Shown: in pieces, positions 8,863-39,267 of the stretch
Layout of the letters: every line of letters starts with the position of its first letter
How positions within the stretch are numbered: position 1 is the first letter of the stretch
From: Apostichopus japonicus
Taxonomy: Eukaryota; Echinodermata; Holothuroidea; Aspidochirotida; Stichopodidae
DNA: 64,000 nucleotides
Assembly (NCBI RefSeq): GCF_037975245.1
Contig: NC_092573.1
Span: forward strand, 22,845,265-22,909,264
Direction of reading: 5' to 3'
Made by a program: the position numbers and the translations under genes
The notes under the pieces: generated by a model
Database searches by the model: none
What the model was told of the DNA's origin: nothing
Seen by the model: the letters and a program-made list of their open reading frames with translations, nothing else

Positions 8863-9216
8863 CTAGCGAGAGAAGACATAAACTAAGATGAGTAAGTGCA
8901 TTTGTCCATTAAAGTTTGAAATTATATTTGCAAACAAATTTATTTATCTATCTGTCGGCCAACAAAACTGTAGAGATAAGTGCGGTCTTCATAATAAGTC
9001 TTATGATTGCCAAAAAAAGAACATGTAAATGAATGCAACAGAAACACTTCTGATCAAGTTATGCAGAATAAAAATTCCCCAAGTTGGCAAAACGCTTTGA
9101 TGTGCCGTGTATGATACATGTGGCCTTCTGGAAATAAGTTTGTAATTAAAAGAAGGAAAAAAAAACATCTGAAATAACAATGTAATATTGAAAAGAAATA
9201 ATTGTATCATATTTAC

Positions 9217-11415
9217 TAGGGTATAAAGATACATCTTGTTTGATTTCCCTGAAGCAGCTACCAGAGTTTCTCCTCCTTTCGATTGCTCCAGTATAGTTAT
9301 ACACTGTGTCCATTTGTCCAGACTTCCTGTTGTAATTAGGGTTCGGCCATCTGGGCTATATTTTGCAAAACGGCAATCAGCATCTCCTTGTTTCTTGGTG
9401 GACCACAACATGAAAATAAACCCTTCTTTGTCTGTGCAGGCACTTAATGGACAATACTCGCCCCTTCCGATTTGTTCCAGCTCTTGTTTGAGAGCTGATT
9501 GGCCACCTTGCCTCGTAACTATGTAGGCTCTTTTCGCACTTTCATCACAGACCAGGAGATAGCGCTCAAGAATCAGAATGTCCGCCATGGATGTTACGAT
9601 CGTTGCCAATTCTAGAGTTCGCACGAAGTTGAGATGTTCGCTAAAGACATAGATATTCATGTTGCTTGCACCCACATATACTTCCTTGGTGGCTCGATCT
9701 GTGGCTACACACGATAAACGCCACGTGTCTCCCCAAAATGGGATGATTTTCGAAATGTCCTTCTGCGACAATGACCAATCCTGAATATTGAACATATTTA
9801 TCAAATTAAACTTTGAAACAGTAACGACCAGTGAATCTGAAAGAGAGGCAATGAATCGAATCGGAAGGGCATTTTTTTCCGCAGTTTTGATGAATTTTTT
9901 TCGCTTTCCTTTGGAATCTATAAGAGCAAGAAATGAGTTCTGTCGTGATTCATAACCCGTGATCGCGATGCGTTTTTTCCCGCAACTAGTTATACTTTGA
10001 ATCTTTTGCCTGGTACCTTTCATTTCAGCAATTTCGATGACACTCATTTCGTCATAAAAAGAAGTGGGGCAGAATTCTACTTTGTTCACACCTTCCCTGC
10101 GGTTCGAAACACTCAAAGAGTAGGTACTCAGTATCGAGGCAAGTTCGAAGGATTTCCTTTCAAAATCATCAACTAATCGCTGGCAGGCGATGTGTAACTC
10201 CGGCAGACATTGTATGGTAATCCAGTCATTGGCAGCCACATGAACGGTTTTACTTGTTGCGTTATAATTATTCATTCTGCCTGCTAATTGATGAACAACT
10301 TCCGATAATTTCAAAACTTCGCCTTCTTTTTGTTCCTGATCCTGCTTTGTAATGGCATTTTCTTCCGCCATCTTCTTCTCTAACCTTTTTTGCTTGTCGT
10401 GTAATTGTTGTAGGGCAATGTCCTGATTTGCGTCCATAGTTTCTTTCTCTTTCCTGTTGTTCATACGAATCGCATGGAGTTTGTTGTTGTATTTCTCAGT
10501 AATTTGTTGAATTTCTTTATCCCTCTTTTCTGTGATCGACTCCTCTTGCTTTCGCAAACTTTCATCCAACTTCGCTTTACTTTTCTTTAGACGGTCTTTC
10601 TGTTCTTTAGTCTTATCTATTATTGCAATCATTTCTCTTTCGTGTTGGTCCTTAACTTTCCGAGCAGCTGGATTATCAATTTTCTGTATAGTGGCATTTG
10701 CTTTTTCAATTCCTGTAATCAATTCTCCGTACCTTTCTTTACATTTCTCCAGATCAACTTCCACTGAAGTGAACTTTTCATTCTCTTTTGCAGCGAGAGA
10801 CTTTATATCACGAATAATATTATGTTCTGAATGACTTACAGTAGCGCATGTCAAACACACTGGAAGGTTATTGCATGTCGAGCAGCAAAGATCGGCTGTT
10901 AACTCAACGTGTAAATCACACTTCTGAGGTCCCTTCAGAAATATATATCCTTGCAAATCAAAACCGTCTGATGCGCAATCCTTGGCGGATATCACTTTCT
11001 CTTTATGATCAGCAATCATCTTGTTTGCAAGATGAAATTGGTAACAGCGATAGCATAGAAAGTCTTTACATTTAAAACAGTAACCAGCCATAGGTATTGA
11101 CTTATTGGAACATCCAATACAGTCATTGATAGCTTTACCATTGAACAAAGACTTAATCCTTTGAAATTCTACCATGTTTTCCATGTGATAGTCTGTTTTG
11201 AAGCCATCCAATCCTTTATCTGGTATGCAACATGTTTGTGAGCATGTAGGACATTCCAAATCCTTTCCATGTAGCACTTGCACTACTTTTGTCAAGCATC
11301 CCTTACAATATCGATGAAAACACGGTAAGAGCTTGGGTTCTGTAAAGTTATCTTGACAGATTGAACAACGGAAAAAGCTTTCTTCAATGTTCTGTGAATT
11401 CGATGAAAGATCCAT
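9217..11415 (-). CDS. TRIM-family RING/B-box protein, main exon
   Basis: Probable E3 ubiquitin ligase of the tripartite-motif type. Residues 17-58 form a C3HC4 RING (C17, C20, C32, H34, C37, C40, C55, C58). A first B-box spans about 99-137 and a second about 166-198 (C166, H169, C178/C181, C187/C190, H195, H198). A long charged coiled coil covers roughly 205-390. The remainder is a repetitive beta-rich region like the propeller-type C-termini of invertebrate TRIM2/56-like proteins. The start ATG (11413-11415) lies 7 bases after a CTTTCACAG acceptor, so a 5' non-coding exon is likely upstream. The frame stays open to 9001, but a CTA/GTAAAT donor ends the propeller region at 9217. The 71 residues beyond it are hydrophobic, intron-like read-through. 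Substrate and exact orthology are not deducible. Confidence 0.85.
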
Positions 11416-11904
11416 GATTGACCTGTGAAAGGAAACCGAAGAAGAGTAAGAAACATTCTTTATTCATCTTCTTACACAATGTAAAATGGGTCTATGCATG
11501 TAAAGTTTGTCAATGTCATGCAAATAGTTTCATATTTCAAGTATAGGGAATTTTTTTAACAGGATAAGGGACACGTTTACATCACAGTACCATAATCCAG
11601 CTAAAAAGAAATGTTTGACATTGTAACTACTCAAACTGTGCGATGGCATGAAATGCATGTACTCAAACTTACGTAATGGTGTTATTTTCTTTGAAAACGT
11701 CAGAAAAGATTCTCTTCACAACTGAGATTGGCAACGGCAGGAGTATAACAACTATCTGTAAAAGAAGATGTCCAGGTATTGAAAAACATTTAAATCTAAA
11801 TATTTATGAAATTCACGTAGCTGTGTATGGAAACAAACTAAGTAGCTGTCTGAAGAATTTCCGCAAATGATAATCTCACACAAATCAGGATCAATATACA
11901 ACAA

Positions 11905-15473: not shown

Positions 15474-16232
15474 CTACATGACCGAAAATCTCAATCTTCT
15501 ATGTGCGACTATGGATGACCAAGGACTTTGGCTGGTTTCATTGTAGAGCTCATCATTTGATAACCAATTGGTCCATCTAATGTTGAAAGTATTACGAAGT
15601 AGTCTCCTTTGAAAAGTGTCAAGTTTGCGATCAAGATCCTTCGTTGTGCCCCACAGTTCGCAATTGTACAAAAAAAATACTCTTTAATAAAGCCTCGAAT
15701 TTACTAAGCTTAATGTTTTCGGCCTATGTTTTTCCTTTAAAAATACTTGACAGTGTGTTGAAAGCACCGTTGGTTATACCAATTCTTCGGTTAATATCTT
15801 CTTCGGTCCCCAGAAGGTTCCAATATATTGACACTTCTTCCAACTTCATTTTCTTTTCTTGTGATTGAAAATTTCTCAGTTTTTGTACAATTGATTTTCA
15901 GATTCCTTCCTGTCAGTTTCTCAGGAACTCGTTTTTCAATATCTTGCAGTATATGCTGACCAGTTGATGCCCAAGAGATATAATCAGCGTATTGTTGGTC
16001 TACTGTGAAAAAAAGAGTTGGTGGTGGTTGTGCTGTAATCATGATCAGCTAACTGAGATGGCAGGATAACTGCATCGATATCACGATCATCTGATTTCAA
16101 AGAGTTGGCTAGGTAAGTTATCAAAAATAGTGTGCTTGCGCTGTCTCCTTGTGGTGAACCAATGTTAGTGTTAAAAGGAAGTCCGAGTTTGCCCTCTAGT
16201 TTGACGGTGTAGGAGACGTTATCGATAAGCAA
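15474..16232 (-). pseudogene. Decayed non-LTR retrotransposon reverse transcriptase
   Basis: Three minus-strand fragments in different frames lie in the order expected for one reverse transcriptase. 16232-15984 contains the palm motif GSPQGDSASTLF. 16042-15791 contains YADY, where a catalytic YADD would stand, so an active-site aspartate is lost. 15671-15474 contains the C-terminal LDTFQRRLLRNTFNIRWTN segment typical of LINE thumb/connector regions. Frameshifts separate them, and no endonuclease domain or 3' tail was found. It is a dead fragment, and the clade cannot be decided by eye. Confidence 0.8.
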
Positions 16233-16334
16233 TGATATCAGGTGAAGTTCGTCGTTGTCAAGAACCTATTACTACTAGGAAAACAGTTTTTTTTTTGGAC
16301 GGACGTATGGAACGCCATGTTGACATTTATTCAA

Positions 16335-18792: not shown

Positions 18793-21700
18793 CTACGCAG
18801 CAGCCAACCAAATCATGAGAATAGTTGTAAATGTTCCTAAGATCAAGAAGACAACAGTAAACAATCTATCGACGGCGTTGGCGCTCTCCATCCACTCACG
18901 TGACGTCTGCTCACTGTCGTCCTTGCCCGTCTGTCTCTTTGCAAGGAACGCCAACCCGTCAGAAATCCTCGTCATGTATTTGTCAATTGGCGTGGTAGTT
19001 TCGTTGTCCTGCTTAAAGAGTTGCTTGACGTCATCAGTGGAAGACCCATTGGCGTAAGGTGCGGCAATTTGTGGTTCTTCATTATCGTCATCTAATTCGT
19101 CGTCTTCAAATGCAGGGTTATGAGCGCCTCGTATGGCGTTGTCACGTGCCGTTTTGATCTCGTGGTACTTTTTGGCGGCCATTTTTATGTTAGGACATTC
19201 GAGAAAGACCATTTTAGCCAGGAAAAGCATACCTCGCCGATAAGTTTGAGACAGTTGAACACTGTCACCTCGGTGATGCATAGACAGTGTGACTATGCTT
19301 AAGACTGTACATATGCCCACCAGCATAATGATCAGGGCATAATATTGGGCTGCAAATGTGAGGAAAACGTTTAAGGATTTGGTTTATAAAAAACACTTTT
19401 TTGTAAATATTTGTATTTAAATCTTACGAAGGTGGAAAGAAGAAAGAACAGTTACAACGGATTCGATTGTTTTTGGGAAAATGCGGATATCATATCTTCA
19501 CTTCTTGTGATTATTAAGTTATCAGTACAACTCTTTAATAAAATACGATGTTTGACAGTTTGACTCTACTTTTACTGTTCAACCCTATTGCATAATTTGC
19601 CATACCAGAGTTTCAACAGTTGTCATCAGTGTACCATACCAATTATAAACTGTTACAATATATTTAATCACCGCTGGATGACGATCAACCCAGCTTTACT
19701 TGTGATATTTGATGTTATATGCTGACACACACACACAAAATAACGGTATTCGGAAATAACTAACTGCAATTGGTTTGTCCTTAAGATATTCAATGCCTCC
19801 AGTAATATCTCACTAATCATTAGATGAATTTATTAATTGAAGAATGGTTGATATGAAATATGATTGATAAACACTTACAAATATATGGCACCACGTCGGA
19901 AGTTGGTGGTAGAGTCTCCGCAACCAAAACCTGAAAGACAGTCAATGAAAGTAAGACGGTGATAGTCAACGTTATCCTCTCGCCTGCGTCAGGTGGAAGG
20001 CAAAACCCAAGCAGGATCATTGCCGATAGCAAGATGCAGGGCAACATCAAGTTCATTACGTAAAACAGCGGTGACCGTTTGATAATGACGTCATAGGATA
20101 CAATAGGGTACGGTTCGGGGCAACAAGGGTAGTAAGTGACCTCCCTCCTTGCAGGCATCGACACCAGCGCCCATTCACCGCTACTTTCGTAGACGCTGAT
20201 GTCGGCTTCTGATTCCCGAATCACGACATCCAATTGGTTACCATGGAAACTCCACGATCCGAATTTAAGGACGCACGTTTGGACGTCAAATGGAAATTTC
20301 AAGGGGTTCATCTCGCATGCGCTCTTTAGGATGGTAGGAGCATTCCATTTGACAAACCCATCCGAGGAAACGACGGCTTGGGTCATTTGGATACCGCCCT
20401 CAAGATTGTCATTTGCACTGCATAACGAAGAGAGAACGTTAAACGTATAAGAGGTGTGGAGCTAGTAAAATCAACAAATATACACTGCGCGCATATCTAC
20501 ATAGATACGCATTTTGTGTTTGCGTCGTTCAAAATAGGAAATTGGTAATTAAAAAAGCTCAGGCACCCCTCAAGATTATTTTTTTTCTTTCAAAGGTAGC
20601 TAATTCGATAAGTTCAATTCTGCCGTTAAGACCCTCTCGTAGTAATTATAATATTATAGTCACATTGAAGCCCAAGCAAACGCTGAAATACAAACATTTC
20701 TTTTTACTTTTTGATTATGAAACAATATAATGGAATTATGGTATGTCGGACGAAGAGTTCACATTGAATTCATATTGCCAATATTATTGTTTGTTATTAT
20801 TTCTTTATATATATTATTCTAATTCTTACTTGTTGTAAAGCACAAGGTCTGGTCTCCACAGCTGTTCAATTGGAATTCGAATCGAGGTGATATTACCATA
20901 GTCACGTGGGTCCCAAGTGAGGGCGGCATCTTGCCATTTCTGTTCGAATAAAACCAAAGAAAGCATGGTGCTCAATGAATAATTGGTAACACCCTCTTTA
21001 CGAAAAAAAAATTTCAGGTGGTCCCATCTCTACCCTTCCTCCCCTCCCGCTTCCCCAGTCCGTACGTCCAGTCCGTTCCTCAATGTGTGTACCTTTGAGA
21101 TACTGTGCATTGGTCACACGGAATGCAAGAGGTTGGGTTTGATATTGCTAATGTAGGTATTATAATACTACTATGCAATTGGGTGGTTGCAGGTACTACA
21201 CTCCATACAAAGAGGGTGGTATGTTTGGTATCACTGTTGACGTCGTTGACCTGACACTACGAGGATTGCATGTTTGACATTACTGTTAAGTTTCATTGTT
21301 ACTATAAGGGTAACATGTTCGTACAGTGGAATAATCAATACACTGCAGGGGTTTTCACGTTCATAACTGTATTGTGTATATAACTTTGCGAATACATGTG
21401 TGGTGTACCTTTTGTGTGCGCTCGATAATTTGAAGATTGATATGGTTTATATAACATGCAGTCGGCAACCACTTGTTAAGATTCATATTGTCGCTGTTGG
21501 AATGTTGGATATTGTTGTATAGGCGTATACGTGCGTGCACATATGCATATGCATGTATACTTACTTGAGTCATCCATAAACTAGTCGTCATAATCTGGTT
21601 GACCTCATCCTGAAAGGAAAAGAATATACGAAAAGGAAAACAATATTGATCCGCCAAAGGCTTACTTTTATAAGAAGGAAATCTAATGCGAGTTGCGCTA

Positions 21701-27818: not shown

Positions 27819-28140
27819 CGACATCGCGGTGTGAAGAAATTCATCTATATATAACCGTGTCAACTGACGAAATTTAACGTTGATGTTATGAACATTGGTT
27901 GGGTATTAGTTGCATAGGCAACATTATCTTTCTCGCGTACAATATGGGGAACGACATAGAACACTATAGTGATATCGAGGTGTCATGACATGAATCTATA
28001 TAAAACCGTGTGAAACTATCAACTGACGATATTTAACGTTGGTGTGATGACATTGGTTGGGTGTTAGTTGCATAGTCAACACTATCTTTCTCGCGTAAGA
28101 TATGGGAAACGACATGGCACACTTTAGTGATATCGCGGTA
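27819..28140 (+). promoter_or_regulatory. Tandemly duplicated upstream segment with X-box-like motif
   Basis: Immediately upstream of the intronless gene at 28176, a segment of about 158 bp occurs twice, with the start of a third copy near 28130. Shared landmarks are AACCGTGT, CAACTGACGA, CATTGGTTGGGT, CTATCTTTCTCGCGTA-like and AGTGATATCG. Copy 1 holds GTTGCATAGGCAAC (27909-27922) and copy 2 GTTGCATAGTCAAC (28067-28080). The first is close to the RFX X-box (GTNRCC, 0-3 bases, RGYAAC), with one mismatch in the left half. That the segment is the promoter is inferred from position. Confidence 0.5.
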
Positions 28141-28175
28141 TCATATCGTTAATTGGAGAGCAAATAACCTCCGAT

Positions 28176-29762
28176 ATGGCAGAGTCCATGATATCATACT
28201 CCAAACATGTGACGAAGATCAAGGAAGCGCGACTTGCTTTACAAAATTCACGAAGAATCCAGCAACAACTTTGGTCCAAGCCACCCAGAGCAACTACACT
28301 ATATGCAGGTAGCGCCCTCACTCCTATCACCCATGGCAACCCATCTGATGTATTTAAGGGTAAATGTCTATCCTTATCTGGGATACCAGTGCCTCAAACT
28401 TCTAAATATCCCAAAATATCCAGTATTTCTTCTTCATCGAAAATCTCCCTGAATTTGGAAAGAACAGATCGGATTGATAGGCTTCGAAACGGCATTGGAG
28501 TAAAATTGAATTCGAAAAACGACTTTGGTAAGTTTAATGTTGATCGTAGAAGTGAAAAAACTATCGTGCCTCCATTGAAGAGTGAATTTACAACAGAATC
28601 ACCCTCTTCAGATGAATTAAAATATATTAAAAATAACAGAAATATATCAAATATTTCACAAGTGACAAATATGACGTCATTTCATGCTGGACTTCCCTGG
28701 CAGATGACACGCGAAGCAAGTTATAATGAAGTTAAACCAAAAATTTATTTACACGTATCTCTTCCTTCAATGATCGACGAAACGACCGAAAAGGAGTCTA
28801 ACACAGAAGAAACCAACGCTACACAATATATGCATCCGCCAAATAACGTTCAAGATGATAAAGACAAAGAAATTGACGCTGATAATACGGACAATAATAA
28901 ACTCACAAAACCAGAATTAGACGCTTCATTAAAAGATGATTTTGAACGTCCTTTCTGGAAGGAAATCCCTCCAAAAGAGATACTCGCAGAAGAAATAGCA
29001 AATACAACTGAACAGCTTCAACAAGAAAACATGAAATCACAGGAACTACCTGTGCTTGAAATTCAACTTTCCCGTAAATCAGATGAGGCCAGAAGTGACC
29101 GGTGTAGAGCCTGCCCAGCATGCATTGCGGAAGGTCAACGTACTTCTTTCAATGAAAACAGTGACGTTTTTAGAAAGAGGTTTAAAGTTAAACGTAAGAA
29201 TGACATCCAACTAACCAAAAAGGATTTGCGTTTAGATAAAATATCCTATCACAAATCTTTCAAAGTGAGTTCACGCTCTAGTCAGGATAGCATGCAACAA
29301 ATTCTCAAAAACGCCCTTAATCAATTGTCTAAAGAAAGACAAAGGAAAGATTTAGAGAATGTTGACGTCAGAGAACGACGACGAATGGCACTCAGAAGAA
29401 TCTCTCAGAAGAAAACAACGATCGCAAAGGATGACGGGAAGTTTGGTCCTAGGCGTGTTTTATGTCGGCATGGTAAATTTATAAGCGAATGTTGCACCTG
29501 TTCAGCTGTCGAAGAAGTACGAAGACGATTAAAGGTGGACATTGAAGAGGCCAGAGGCGAATACGACTGGAAATTTACAAGAAGTATTTTGTCAAATAGA
29601 TGGCGCTCTTCGCAGAATTTACTCAATCCTCTTGGAATAGATGAAGTGTTGAATGATGTTAAGAGAAAAGAGAAAGGGAAGTTGGCGAGCAAAACGGTTC
29701 ACTTTTCTGAGAGGAATATCATCCATCCTTTGGTATCTCGAGGGGGAGATCAGCTAGTATGA
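28176..29762 (+). CDS. Unrecognised intronless gene, disordered protein (528 aa)
   Basis: A single uninterrupted frame of 528 codons with ordinary composition, far longer than chance for this AT-rich window. The product is polar and rich in K, R, E, S and N, with no signal peptide or membrane segment, so it is probably largely disordered. Visible features are an N-terminal basic helix (about residues 12-35), a cysteine cluster DRCRACPACIAEG near 308-320, and a second cluster LCRHGKFISECCTCS near 429-443 that could bind zinc. A KTVHF sequence near 506-510 fits the degenerate protein phosphatase-1 docking pattern. It is convergent with the intronless gene at 30684. Lack of introns among intron-rich neighbours suggests a retrogene or a rapidly evolving lineage gene. 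I do not recognise the family. Confidence 0.75.
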   Translation: MAESMISYSKHVTKIKEARLALQNSRRIQQQLWSKPPRATTLYAGSALTPITHGNPSDVFKGKCLSLSGIPVPQTSKYPKISSISSSSKISLNLERTDRIDRLRNGIGVKLNSKNDFGKFNVDRRSEKTIVPPLKSEFTTESPSSDELKYIKNNRNISNISQVTNMTSFHAGLPWQMTREASYNEVKPKIYLHVSLPSMIDETTEKESNTEETNATQYMHPPNNVQDDKDKEIDADNTDNNKLTKPELDASLKDDFERPFWKEIPPKEILAEEIANTTEQLQQENMKSQELPVLEIQLSRKSDEARSDRCRACPACIAEGQRTSFNENSDVFRKRFKVKRKNDIQLTKKDLRLDKISYHKSFKVSSRSSQDSMQQILKNALNQLSKERQRKDLENVDVRERRRMALRRISQKKTTIAKDDGKFGPRRVLCRHGKFISECCTCSAVEEVRRRLKVDIEEARGEYDWKFTRSILSNRWRSSQNLLNPLGIDEVLNDVKRKEKGKLASKTVHFSERNIIHPLVSRGGDQLV

Positions 29763-30683
29763 TGGTAATTTGATATGAATATTACGATAGAATATGTTTA
29801 ATATTTTGATCTGTTCAATCGTGTTATTCGATACAAGATGAGTTGTATATCATTCAGTGATTTGTTTCTATGACTATCATACTTACGATGTCTATATGAA
29901 AATTATGTAAAATCACTGCATCTTATTTTTTCGTTATTAATTTTTATGTATAACGAGCTTGGTTATCTCTCTGGTTGCTTTAACCTTGAAACCATATATA
30001 TTGCCAGCCTTCAGAGTTATAGCAAGCTTAGTATTGTTAAAACGTTCTGAGAGAAGGGAGAAGGGGAGGGGAGACGGTCCCACGAGTCCCCTCCCTGTAT
30101 ACGACCCTGAACGATGGTGAAATGCATAAAATGATAAATAACATTCTTGGAAACTTTCCGTTTGAGTTAAAAACAAGATTTGTTTGCTGCAATTGACTGT
30201 ACGGACTACTAATATATAGTCCTTAGTTTAGAATTAATCTTAATAATTCTCATAAAATGTTTGCTTTGCTGTTAATGTTCTTGTCTGTCATCTGCCTTAT
30301 TGTAAAGCTACACTTATTCCTCGTCATTTTTAACAAACTACAAATAATCTACCCCTGTTAAACTGCTCTTAATCTACCCCCACCTCTGTTAAACAGCTCT
30401 TAATCTACCCAAAAGCCCGGTTAAACCGCTTTTAATCATGCAAATGAAAGAACTTTTAAAAGTGTTCACGTACTAATTACGTAATCTACCACCCCCCCCT
30501 GCCTGGGGTTTAAAAAAGTACGACTTACTTTACTTAAGTACTTATTCCCTTTGTTCACACGCTGTATAGAATTTTTTAATATATGCTTATCAATAAAGAC
30601 AATCTCATTCGATAATTCAAATGTCCTTCTTTAAAAAATGAATTCCGAGTATCCAGATCTCTAAATTCCCGCGGTTTCAGTTG
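29763..30683. other. Convergent intergenic spacer
   Basis: Shared 3' flank of the two intronless genes. It contains a small imperfect repeat of the words TGTTAAAC.GCTCTTAATCTACCC (about 30356-30440). No gene is seen. Confidence 0.45.
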
Positions 30684-32126
30684 TCAAATGGTTGTTGTTA
30701 GGGTGATGTCAAAAACTTTCTGCGATAATTTATTGATGTTATCATCACTCGATTTTCTTCCATCATCAACGTACATTACATCATCAATATTAGTTCGTTT
30801 GACACCATTCGTCTCTGTCTTAAAAATGTTCCGTAAAGAAACGAATTTTGCACTCATAACGCTGGAATTTAAACCTACAGACGAATTAACCTCCAACGGT
30901 GAATCAGTTTTGAAGGAATTGGAATACGTCATGTTGACGTCAGTCGACCCAGGATCCCAGGTATCCTTTGATTCCTTTTCGTTATTAATTTGTTGATCAA
31001 TTTCTATATTATTTTTCCAGTTTCTCGATGATCCAACTCCCAATATTTCAGGAGGAAGCTTAAATCTTACCCTCTTTTGTGCCTTTTCTTCGTCACTGAC
31101 TTTTTCGATTTTTCCCCTCCATTTAAGATTTCCCTCTGGAGGTGGGGAAGGTGCCCCGGTGTCTGAAGTCACCAGGGTTTCTAACATGACTTGAACCGGG
31201 GAGGCAGGAATAATGACCTCACCCTGACCATTTCTTCGAAGGGTTAGTTTCAAGTTACCTCCATTTATCCTCCTTGGTATCAGCTTCTGAAGTTTGATAG
31301 TTAACGCCTCGGAATAGAAAAATTGTTTTCTGACTGGATGTCGTCTAGCATTTTCTCGGTCGTGTTTTCTGACTACGGCATAATTAACTCGTTTCCGTTT
31401 CGGTAAACTTTCTCTTATCTTTTGTTTCGTTACATTATCTTTCTTATCTTGCTTTGTTTTTTCCATCTTTTTGTTCTTCAAATTTGCACTCTTTTTGTTC
31501 TTTTTATTGGTTGACGTAGACATGTGACGTGGCGACATAAACGATTGGCTAATGATTTCTGACGACATCGCGGAACTAGTACCAACGTTGGGGAATAAAT
31601 CTATCACAACTGTATCATTGGCATTATCAAAATCACTTTGTACATCATTAGCTATGGTACGTCTCAAAGAGCTGGTTCCAGACCGAATTATTCTCTCATC
31701 ATCCTCTGAGACATCTTCTCTCGAATAGCAAGTATTTGTTTGAAATTTCTGTTGGCTTTTCGGTGAATTGGTATGGCCGTCACGTCGATAACTCAATGAG
31801 CCCGGAGGAAAACTCTGACTAGTAGAAAATGTTGGTCTCCTAGCCTTTTTTCCGGTGAAATCAACATTAATTCCATTGTTAGATAAAGATGAAATATTTT
31901 GGTTTATTTGAGGTAGAGAGAAAATACTCTTGTGTAGATATGTGAAGCTTCTAGCTCGATCTAAATCTTTATCAGGATATATTATATTTCCAGAAGGTAC
32001 AAAAACTCTCCCTGTTAAATAACTCACAGAACTGAACCTTTGGGATTCAGGTGCCAAATGACCAGTTCGAATTGTTCCACGCTGGTGAAGTTTGTTAGAA
32101 ACTGTTCCATATTCGAACGTAGTCAT
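30684..32126 (-). CDS. Unrecognised intronless gene, basic disordered protein (480 aa)
   Basis: A single open frame of 480 codons on the minus strand, starting at the ATG at 32124-32126. Composition is polar and serine/asparagine/lysine rich. A strongly basic lysine block (about residues 207-245) and KRKR near 246-249 would suit nuclear localisation. The best-ordered part is about 265-320 (an FFYSEALTIKLQKLIPRR segment, then GGNLKLTLRRNGQGEVIIP), which reads like a short beta-rich fold. KRVRF near 349-353 is a good match to the protein phosphatase-1 RVxF docking motif. No transmembrane segment or known domain was recognised. It faces the gene at 28176 tail to tail, about 920 bp apart. Confidence 0.75.
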   Translation of the reverse strand: MTTFEYGTVSNKLHQRGTIRTGHLAPESQRFSSVSYLTGRVFVPSGNIIYPDKDLDRARSFTYLHKSIFSLPQINQNISSLSNNGINVDFTGKKARRPTFSTSQSFPPGSLSYRRDGHTNSPKSQQKFQTNTCYSREDVSEDDERIIRSGTSSLRRTIANDVQSDFDNANDTVVIDLFPNVGTSSAMSSEIISQSFMSPRHMSTSTNKKNKKSANLKNKKMEKTKQDKKDNVTKQKIRESLPKRKRVNYAVVRKHDRENARRHPVRKQFFYSEALTIKLQKLIPRRINGGNLKLTLRRNGQGEVIIPASPVQVMLETLVTSDTGAPSPPPEGNLKWRGKIEKVSDEEKAQKRVRFKLPPEILGVGSSRNWKNNIEIDQQINNEKESKDTWDPGSTDVNMTYSNSFKTDSPLEVNSSVGLNSSVMSAKFVSLRNIFKTETNGVKRTNIDDVMYVDDGRKSSDDNINKLSQKVFDITLTTTI

Positions 32127-36147: not shown

Positions 36148-39100
36148 ATGGAAGAATACACGGATGCTTCAGCAGGAGAGGAACTGGGCCAGACCATTGA
36201 AATGCCTCCAAAACATAACATCCCATTTGTGCAGTAAGTTACACACAACATTTAAGGGTCGATTTTTTGATAGGCCTGCAACTTGACTGAATTTTTATAG
36301 CTCTGTTTTTTTTAAATTTTACTGCTGTAATTGTCAAAGAAATTGATAGCTAATGTACGTTTTCATGTTTCTTTGAAACCTTTGTGAGGATGAACCTGGA
36401 AGTTGCACCATTGGTGCCGTTTAGAAGTATGAATTTGTGGCATTGTGCCCTTAAAGTTTACTCAGAAACATGTGCTATTGATGCCCCTTTAGCCTCCTAC
36501 CAGTGGCACAAACAACATGCCCTTTCCAAAATGACATCACACCATGTAAGTACATGATTGGTAAGTCTGTTGAGGGGCAAATTAATGAGACAAAAGTTGT
36601 TGGAATAGTAAAATTGTCTCTTTTGCTTGTAACATTCAGATCATCTCAGACTGTCAGAAGGTCAGCCATTGCTGTTAACCATCCCAATACAGATCCTCAT
36701 CATACAACTCTTGGAAATAGGCAGCACCCACCTGCCTTGGATTTGGACAAATTACTGGCAGACCAAGAATACAAACAAAGGTTGGTAATAAATTTTTTTT
36801 TTTTTCCTTACCATACTGATATACTGGGATTTACATTTCAAGATAAACTAAAAGAAAAAGGTTAAAAAAATGTTTAGGTTTATCATACAAACATTGCGAT
36901 ATAAGTTCGAATAGATGTGTAACAACCTACCCATGTTGCTTTATACCATTTTAAATGTGATCCCATATAAATTATTCCTGCATGTACTTAAATCAAACAA
37001 CCTAATTTTTACTATACAAATTTTAAAAATCTTTTTCTATCCTCAGGCACCTCCTTGCAGCTAACCAATCTTCACAAGTTGATGGACTGGTAGATTTGGT
37101 GAGTTTTGTGCATTAATTCTGCTTACAACAGGTCAAAGTTGCAGTTTCTTAAAAACAAATTATTTAAACTGGTGATCCTTCCTCTAGTTTAAGTCCCCCA
37201 AATCAAACAAAATTTGTAGCTATAGATCTGCTGCATAGACCGAGGTGTGATAAACAAATTGTGGTTAAACTCACTTCTTGTTCTTTTATTATCCTATAAG
37301 TAAGCAAAACTGTATGTGAAAATTGAATTTTAAAATAGGTTGATTAGAATTCCTACCTAAGCTAAAATATGGAATATCTTACGTTTATCAGCAGAAAGAG
37401 AGCCAAACTATGTCGAGATATGCAGACGGTTCCCTCTTCAAGGTTAAATCTCTAGAAAAGCTGCCAAAACCCAGTGAATTACTGCGTCGTTCACGAAAAC
37501 GAACCTACAAGCAACAGCATACAGTGTCAAAGAATGCCATGGCAGTAGAAGAACATGTAACACAGTTACAAAGAAAGAAAACAAACTTTTATGGGTGAGT
37601 ATTACGATTAATTTTGACTTCAGTTAACTAGTTAATGTTACCAAGCTAAAACATTAATCAGGACAGTAGTATAAATTCATTGTTGACAGCAAAATCATTA
37701 ATAACTGTATATAAGCTGTGCATATGATTCCAATTGCTAACACACACAAACTATTATGTTACTTGAACAAGATGTTTGTCTATATCTTCAGTACTAAACG
37801 GATCTATGAATTCATCAACTGCAAGAGTACACCTGTTTGAACTGCTCTCAAGCTTTTATTGGCTTTATTAGCAGCTTGAGAATGGTCTTGAATGGTGCCC
37901 CTTCCAGATTTCTGCTACACTCTATCCAGGGTTAAAGCATTCAATGCTTTACAGGGGTCTCAATGTTCTCCTTTGTACAAAATTTCACTTCAGCTTAATA
38001 GCAGAAAGTCATTTAATTTTTTACTGTTATTTCTTTCCTCCAGCGGTGTTCAGATTCAGAGAAATGAAGAGACATTTAGTCCCCAAGATGTCAAAGTACA
38101 GGCAACCAGAGCACACCGACTTCAGCAAGTACCAAGCTTGTCTGAAATGGTACAACATACTTATTCCCCAACCAGGGCACGACGTCAGCGAGTGTCTGAA
38201 ATGGTACAACATACTTCTTCCCCGACCAGGGCACGACTTCAACGAGTGTCTGAAATGGTACAACATACTTCTTCCCCGACCAGGGCACGACTTCAGCGAG
38301 TGTCTGAAATGGTACAACATACTTCTTCCCCAACCAGAGCACAACTTCAGCAAGTACCAGGCTTGTCTGAAATGGTACAACACACTTCTTCCCCAACCAA
38401 TTTCTGGTCTACCAATGACTGGTTGCTTGGTGTAAGCAGTAGAAGAGGCCTCACTGGATTGCCCAAATCTTATTCTTCCCTGGTAAATGCAAAATGTGTT
38501 CTTTTTACGGTTGTCAGGTAGACTTTGAAAATGTAAGCACTGCTCAGTAAACTAAATGTGAAACCATGAAGCAGCTTGTTGTATATCACTACGATTAATC
38601 AATTTCTACTGGATTAACAAGGTTTTCAGTCAAATTTAAGTAGTGCATTGCCTTAAGCCTTCAATGGCACAAGTAGTGTGCAATCAGTTTGTAATTGGTC
38701 TTATCTCTGATGGCATTAACTACTTATACTCAGAAGTTGACGTACCGTATAAATTAGGAAAAGATGATTTGCTGTAAACCAATCGTTCGATAGGTGGATG
38801 GAGGGAGGGCAGGTGGATTAAATTCATGCAGTAGATGAGTGTACAGTAGTTGTTGCAAGACAGGTAATGTGGATCTAATCTCTTAATTGTATTTTGTCTA
38901 ACCTAATTAGTAACTCACATTAAGCAATGCACTGACCATATGGAGAATGCTTCTCATCGAGGAGAAATATCATATGATACTTGAACTATTTGAAGTTTTT
39001 TATAACCTAAGCTGTTGAGGTCATGTATCTAATGGAAAAATATCAAACAATATCAGTTTCAAGACAAATTCTTTAACTTTTCTGCAGGAGACACCGGTAA

Positions 39101-39267
39101 TGGCAGCTGAGGACATTATATCTGATGAGCAAAGGATCGGTACAGCTTCATCTGTCTTTGAAGAACATGAAGTGCTAAGTACTGAAGAGTACCAAAGAAA
39201 GGAAAATTTGGACCTATCGTACTACAGATCAACCAATGAACATCCACCAGTTCACCCTGAAGAATGA
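36148..39267 (+). CDS. Unrecognised six-exon gene with 18-residue repeats (365 aa)
   Basis: Hand-assembled exons are 36148-36233, 36640-36780, 37047-37098, 37395-37594, 38044-38482 and 39088-39267. All junctions are GT-AG and phases agree. The sum is 1098 nt ending in TGA, giving 365 residues. The ATG directly follows a TACTAACAG acceptor, so a 5' exon, possibly coding, may lie upstream. The protein is hydrophilic. A basic stretch KPSELLRRSRKRTYKQQ lies at about 120-136. Residues about 193-280 hold five copies of an 18-residue repeat close to SEMVQHTSSPTRARLQRV. The C-terminus is acidic and ends HPPVHPEE. No known domain or targeting signal was recognised. It is convergent with HAUS1, with 0.75 kb between stops. 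An uncharacterised, largely disordered protein is all that can be claimed. Confidence 0.8.
38096..38402 (+). repeat. 54-bp coding tandem repeat
   Basis: Copies of a 54-bp unit start (at TCTGAAATGG) at 38141, 38195, 38249 and 38303. A further copy starts at 38366 after a 9-bp longer unit, and a partial unit lies upstream. The period is a multiple of three, so copy number can change without frameshift. Other frames and the reverse strand also stay open through the array, which explains several spurious frames here. Splice phase selects the SEMVQHT frame. Confidence 0.9.

Follow-up and report, generated by a model that had tools for sequence, protein, structure and literature searches.

The DNA analyzed here is a 64,000-nucleotide stretch of the Apostichopus japonicus genome (the window), in which two single-exon coding frames lie in convergent orientation. 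The plus gene occupies positions 28176..29762 of the forward strand, with its ATG at 28176 and its stop codon at 29760-29762, and encodes a protein of 528 amino acids. The minus gene occupies positions 30684..32126 of the reverse strand, with its ATG at 32126 and its stop at 30684, and encodes a protein of 480 amino acids that is predicted to be disordered. The stop-to-stop gap between them is 921 bases. A previous inspection of the letters, referred to below as the sequence-only reading, had described two long facing single-exon frames of 528 and 480 codons; as far as the coding frames are concerned, both the coordinates and the coding signal agree with this description.

The same reading had placed the pair among intron-rich neighbours. 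This applies to a nicotinic-type ligand-gated channel (18796-21029, minus strand) and to a translational GTPase (49504 onward, plus strand; Pfam GTP_EFTU), both of which are multi-exon, but not to a RING/TRIM-like frame of 820 codons (9004-11463, minus strand), which is unbroken. The GTPase is presumably mitochondrial EF-G2. The average exon of the A. japonicus genome measures about 194 bases (PMC10344927); at 1.6 and 1.4 kb, the two coding exons are thus unusually long, yet not unique in the window.

Stop-free runs at the two loci comprised 543 codons for the plus gene (28131-29762) and 507 codons for the minus gene, where the run extends to 32207. By comparison, the longest run among 60 simulated sequences of 64 kb each, with the dinucleotide make-up of the window, was 215 codons, and the mean of the maxima was 144. 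Codon log-likelihood, for which the window's remaining genes served as the training set, was +0.091 per codon for the plus and +0.071 for the minus gene and was positive in these frames only; all remaining reading frames at both loci scored between -0.065 and -0.343. Three-base periodicity showed signal-to-noise ratios of 5.5 and 7.9, respectively, comparable to the value of 6.5 obtained for the TRIM-like gene, and both ATG contexts carry a G at position -3. Chance open frames or decayed pseudogenes would be expected to lack a homologue, as both proteins do in the sources searched; however, length and frame-specific codon bias are well past chance and internal stops are absent from both frames, so that we regard this explanation as very improbable and are highly confident that both frames are real genes. 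Downstream of the plus gene, the sole candidate poly(A) signal of the AATAAA type is an AATAAA at 30592..30597 (plus strand), and an ATTAAA at 30575..30580 (minus strand) is a candidate signal for the minus gene. Judging from these positions, the two transcripts may share a few tens of bases at their 3' ends.

Relatives and additional copies of both genes were searched for. Whole-protein, segment and DNA searches of the genome (671,581,487 bases in 35 contigs) did not reveal a second copy of either gene, and a segment of the minus protein gave chance-level matches only (E 1.1 and 9.5). Being single-copy, neither gene represents a repeat element or a recent retrocopy whose parent gene survives, and the latter origin was rejected. 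Both proteins matched Pfam below cut-off only, no relatives were found among PDB sequences, and the tails carrying the docking motifs gave zero matches to PDB chains. Hence, both are single-copy genes, and the lack of a match above cut-off in Pfam, PDB or the other sources searched agrees with the sequence-only reading, which had recognized no family. Viral contigs contained no relatives of either protein and prokaryote genomes, scanned with the plus protein only, none of that protein; a viral origin of both genes and a bacterial origin of the plus gene were therefore dismissed. Paralogy of the two proteins was rejected as well, the best match between them having an E-value of 2.0. Derivation of one or both frames from a transposable element or provirus would explain why such long unbroken frames occur in a genome rich in introns, but it is hardly compatible with the single copy seen at both DNA and protein level, with a pair that is devoid of flanking terminal repeats and of any Pfam transposon or retroelement domain, or with a cysteine spacing in the plus protein that differs from the CCHC knuckle of retroelement Gag. 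Such an origin therefore appears very unlikely.

The two proteins are charged and of low hydropathy and, each taken as a whole, fall below the charge-hydropathy boundary. Single-sequence structure models yielded a mean pLDDT of 41 for the plus and 32 for the minus protein with almost no confident structure, a low single-sequence pLDDT being by itself no proof of disorder. Both proteins thus look largely disordered according to these predictions, which is consistent with what had been proposed from the letters. In the plus protein, helices were predicted with confidence at residues 2-34 and 367-411. Furthermore, seven of its eight cysteines fall within two clusters that had already been pointed out: C-x2-C-x2-C at residues 310-316 (Cys 310/313/316; 29103..29123, plus strand) and C-x-H-x6-C-C-x-C at residues 430-442 (Cys 430/439/440/442; 29463..29501, plus strand). 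Two clusters of at least three cysteines within 13 residues were reproduced in none of 5000 shuffled proteins, and metal binding by these clusters is possible. The minus protein carries, as described earlier, a basic, nuclear-localization-like block at residues ~205-265, including KRKR at 243 (31332..31514, minus strand).

Each protein also contains the motif resembling a docking site for protein phosphatase-1 (PP1) that had been noticed before: KTVHF at residues 506-510 near the C-terminus of the plus protein, followed by SERN-II (residues 506-517; 29691..29726, plus strand), and KRVRF at residues 351-355 of the minus protein (31062..31076, minus strand). The RVxF consensus, [K/R]x(0-1)[V/I]x[F/W], is used by structurally unrelated PP1 partners (PMC6406801). 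Both KTVHF and KRVRF match it. Its frequency in shuffled proteins was determined with a loose pattern near-identical to the published consensus, in which P was barred at the x before F/W. In proteins of equal composition, the loose form is expected 0.76 times (plus) and 0.82 times (minus) per protein, and at least one match occurred in 52% and 54% of the shuffles, respectively. The RING/TRIM-like neighbour also fits the loose consensus (KVEF). The caution that such short motifs also arise by chance was thus borne out. In contrast, the idea that the RVxF motifs link the two genes in a shared role was not supported by the comparison, as the loose matches are at chance level (P 0.52 and 0.54) and extend to the TRIM-like gene; we consider a shared role highly improbable.

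More restrictive versions of the motif were less frequent. The strict form occurred in 8% (plus) and 9% (minus) of the shuffles. Both proteins have one strict motif combined with a hydrophobic pair, as found in 2% of the shuffles of each (P ~0.02); in the plus protein, this pair, II, stands four residues after KTVHF. The pattern K/R-x-V-x-F-[ST]-[ED] is present in the plus protein only and occurred in 0.3% of the shuffles (P=0.003). Of the two motifs, only that of the plus protein, with SE and the hydrophobic pair behind it, is better than chance by these figures. These P values (0.003-0.02) are optimistic because the refinements were picked after the sequences had been seen. A second docking motif of the SILK or MyPhoNE type was found in neither protein.

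Docking motifs usually sit in disordered tails. Around both RVxF motifs pLDDT was low and charge-hydropathy near the boundary, as judged from single-sequence models only. The plus protein resembles the RVxF-PhiPhi docking of NIPP1, PNUTS and spinophilin in that K-T-V-H-F is followed by acidic or polar residues and a hydrophobic pair within a segment predicted to be disordered, and we take its KTVHFSERNII to resemble the docking segment of NIPP1. It differs from these proteins in having no similarity beyond the motif and neither an FHA nor another known domain.

A competing explanation, at somewhat less than even odds, is that both RVxF-like motifs are fortuitous and that the genes encode two ordinary fast-evolving proteins that have no connection with PP1 or with one another. 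Nearly one loose match is expected in each protein, the TRIM-like neighbour carries a match as well, both proteins lack a second docking motif, and they are not similar to each other; all of this is as chance would have it. It accounts less readily for the plus motif, where SE and II following KTVHF are rare in shuffles and the location is a predicted disordered tail. We regard PP1 binding of the plus protein as somewhat short of an even chance and that of the minus protein as unlikely. Judged from the motif, the proposal of a PP1-binding scaffold is reasonable in the case of the plus gene but poor in that of the minus gene.

The region upstream of the plus gene was inspected for regulatory sites. 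Immediately 5' of the ATG lies a tandem duplication with a unit of ~158 bp (27820..28153, plus strand), inside which a TATA-like TATATAAAA is located at 27997 (plus strand). The X-box is the site bound by RFX factors. An X-box-like imperfect palindrome, GTTGCATAGGCAAC, is found at 27909..27922 (plus strand), 254 bases upstream of the ATG, and is among the two best-scoring X-box sites in the window; a degraded copy, GTTGCATAGTCAAC, is present in the second duplication unit (28067-28080, plus strand). Near the minus gene no X-box was found. With palindromic sites scored on both strands, the X-box class GTTGCNNNGGCAAC had 962 matches genome-wide as compared to 78 for the reversed control, a difference that suggests functional use of X-boxes in the sea cucumber. 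Most of this enrichment comes from variants without A at position 6. The variant with A at this position, GTTGCANNGGCAAC, gave 43 matches genome-wide versus 26 in the control, and the exact 14-mer variant (A at position 6, centre TA) was not enriched (two sites versus three). As an aside, the enriched GTTGCNNNGGCAAC palindromes of the non-A type provide a ready-made set of sites from which ciliary genes of this animal could be predicted.

The sequence-only reading had offered germline or ciliary genes as a guess. The palindrome upstream of the plus gene agrees with this guess, but its exact sequence shows no enrichment across the genome; the X-box was therefore demoted from strong evidence of ciliary control to a weak lead, which may hint at ciliary expression of the plus gene only. 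A ciliary or sperm-flagellar role of the plus gene, perhaps of both genes, under RFX control would be compatible with PP1 docking as well as with fortuitous motifs, and would draw on the palindrome, its degraded duplicate and the strong enrichment of the class. The distance of 254 bases between palindrome and ATG can be set beside the X-boxes of C. elegans ciliary genes, for which a location 100-250 bp ahead of the coding sequence is common (PMC2873420). Such a role is nevertheless rather improbable: the variant present at the site is not enriched, the minus gene has no X-box nearby, and solved axonemal proteins in the PDB gave no match. Moreover, of three tektin first exons, one was preceded by a comparable site at a distance of up to 1.5 kb, which makes this positive control weak. 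IIIG9/PPP1R32, a ciliary PP1 regulatory subunit (PMC9600092), is a precedent for an RVxF-type subunit in ciliated cells; no similarity to the plus or minus protein was recognized, and the link, based on function only, is speculative. It is very unlikely that the two convergent genes are regulated together and encode PP1 regulatory subunits that are specific to echinoderms, belong to a ciliary or sperm structure and invented their RVxF sites independently.

Taken together, the reading that we prefer, at a probability of roughly 0.45, is that of two unrelated single-copy convergent genes, the plus gene encoding a disordered scaffold that docks PP1 and the minus gene a basic disordered protein. 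Both proteins would be too diverged, or too lineage-specific, to match the families searched. The plus protein would most likely act as a scaffold or adaptor: its N-terminal and central helices and the two cysteine clusters, which perhaps bind metal, would hold partners, and its predicted disordered C-terminus would dock PP1 via KTVHF together with the hydrophobic pair behind it. In the case of the minus protein, a basic, disordered protein of the nucleus or the cytoskeleton is most likely, and its KRVRF may be a chance match.

PP1 partners share little besides short motifs, and to our knowledge they have been little studied in echinoderms. If the plus protein docks PP1, one more unrelated regulatory subunit would be added to this phosphatase; otherwise, the two genes are two among many uncharacterized echinoderm genes, with the lesson that paired RVxF-like matches are no evidence for a shared role.

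Two further regions of the window drew attention. At 15477-16265 (minus strand), frames resemble degraded pieces of a non-LTR reverse transcriptase; Pfam at 0.01 gave no match. At 37344-39264 (plus strand), short frames without a Pfam match show coding-like composition and internal ATGs, and a repetitive stretch at ~38030-38520 lies close to them.
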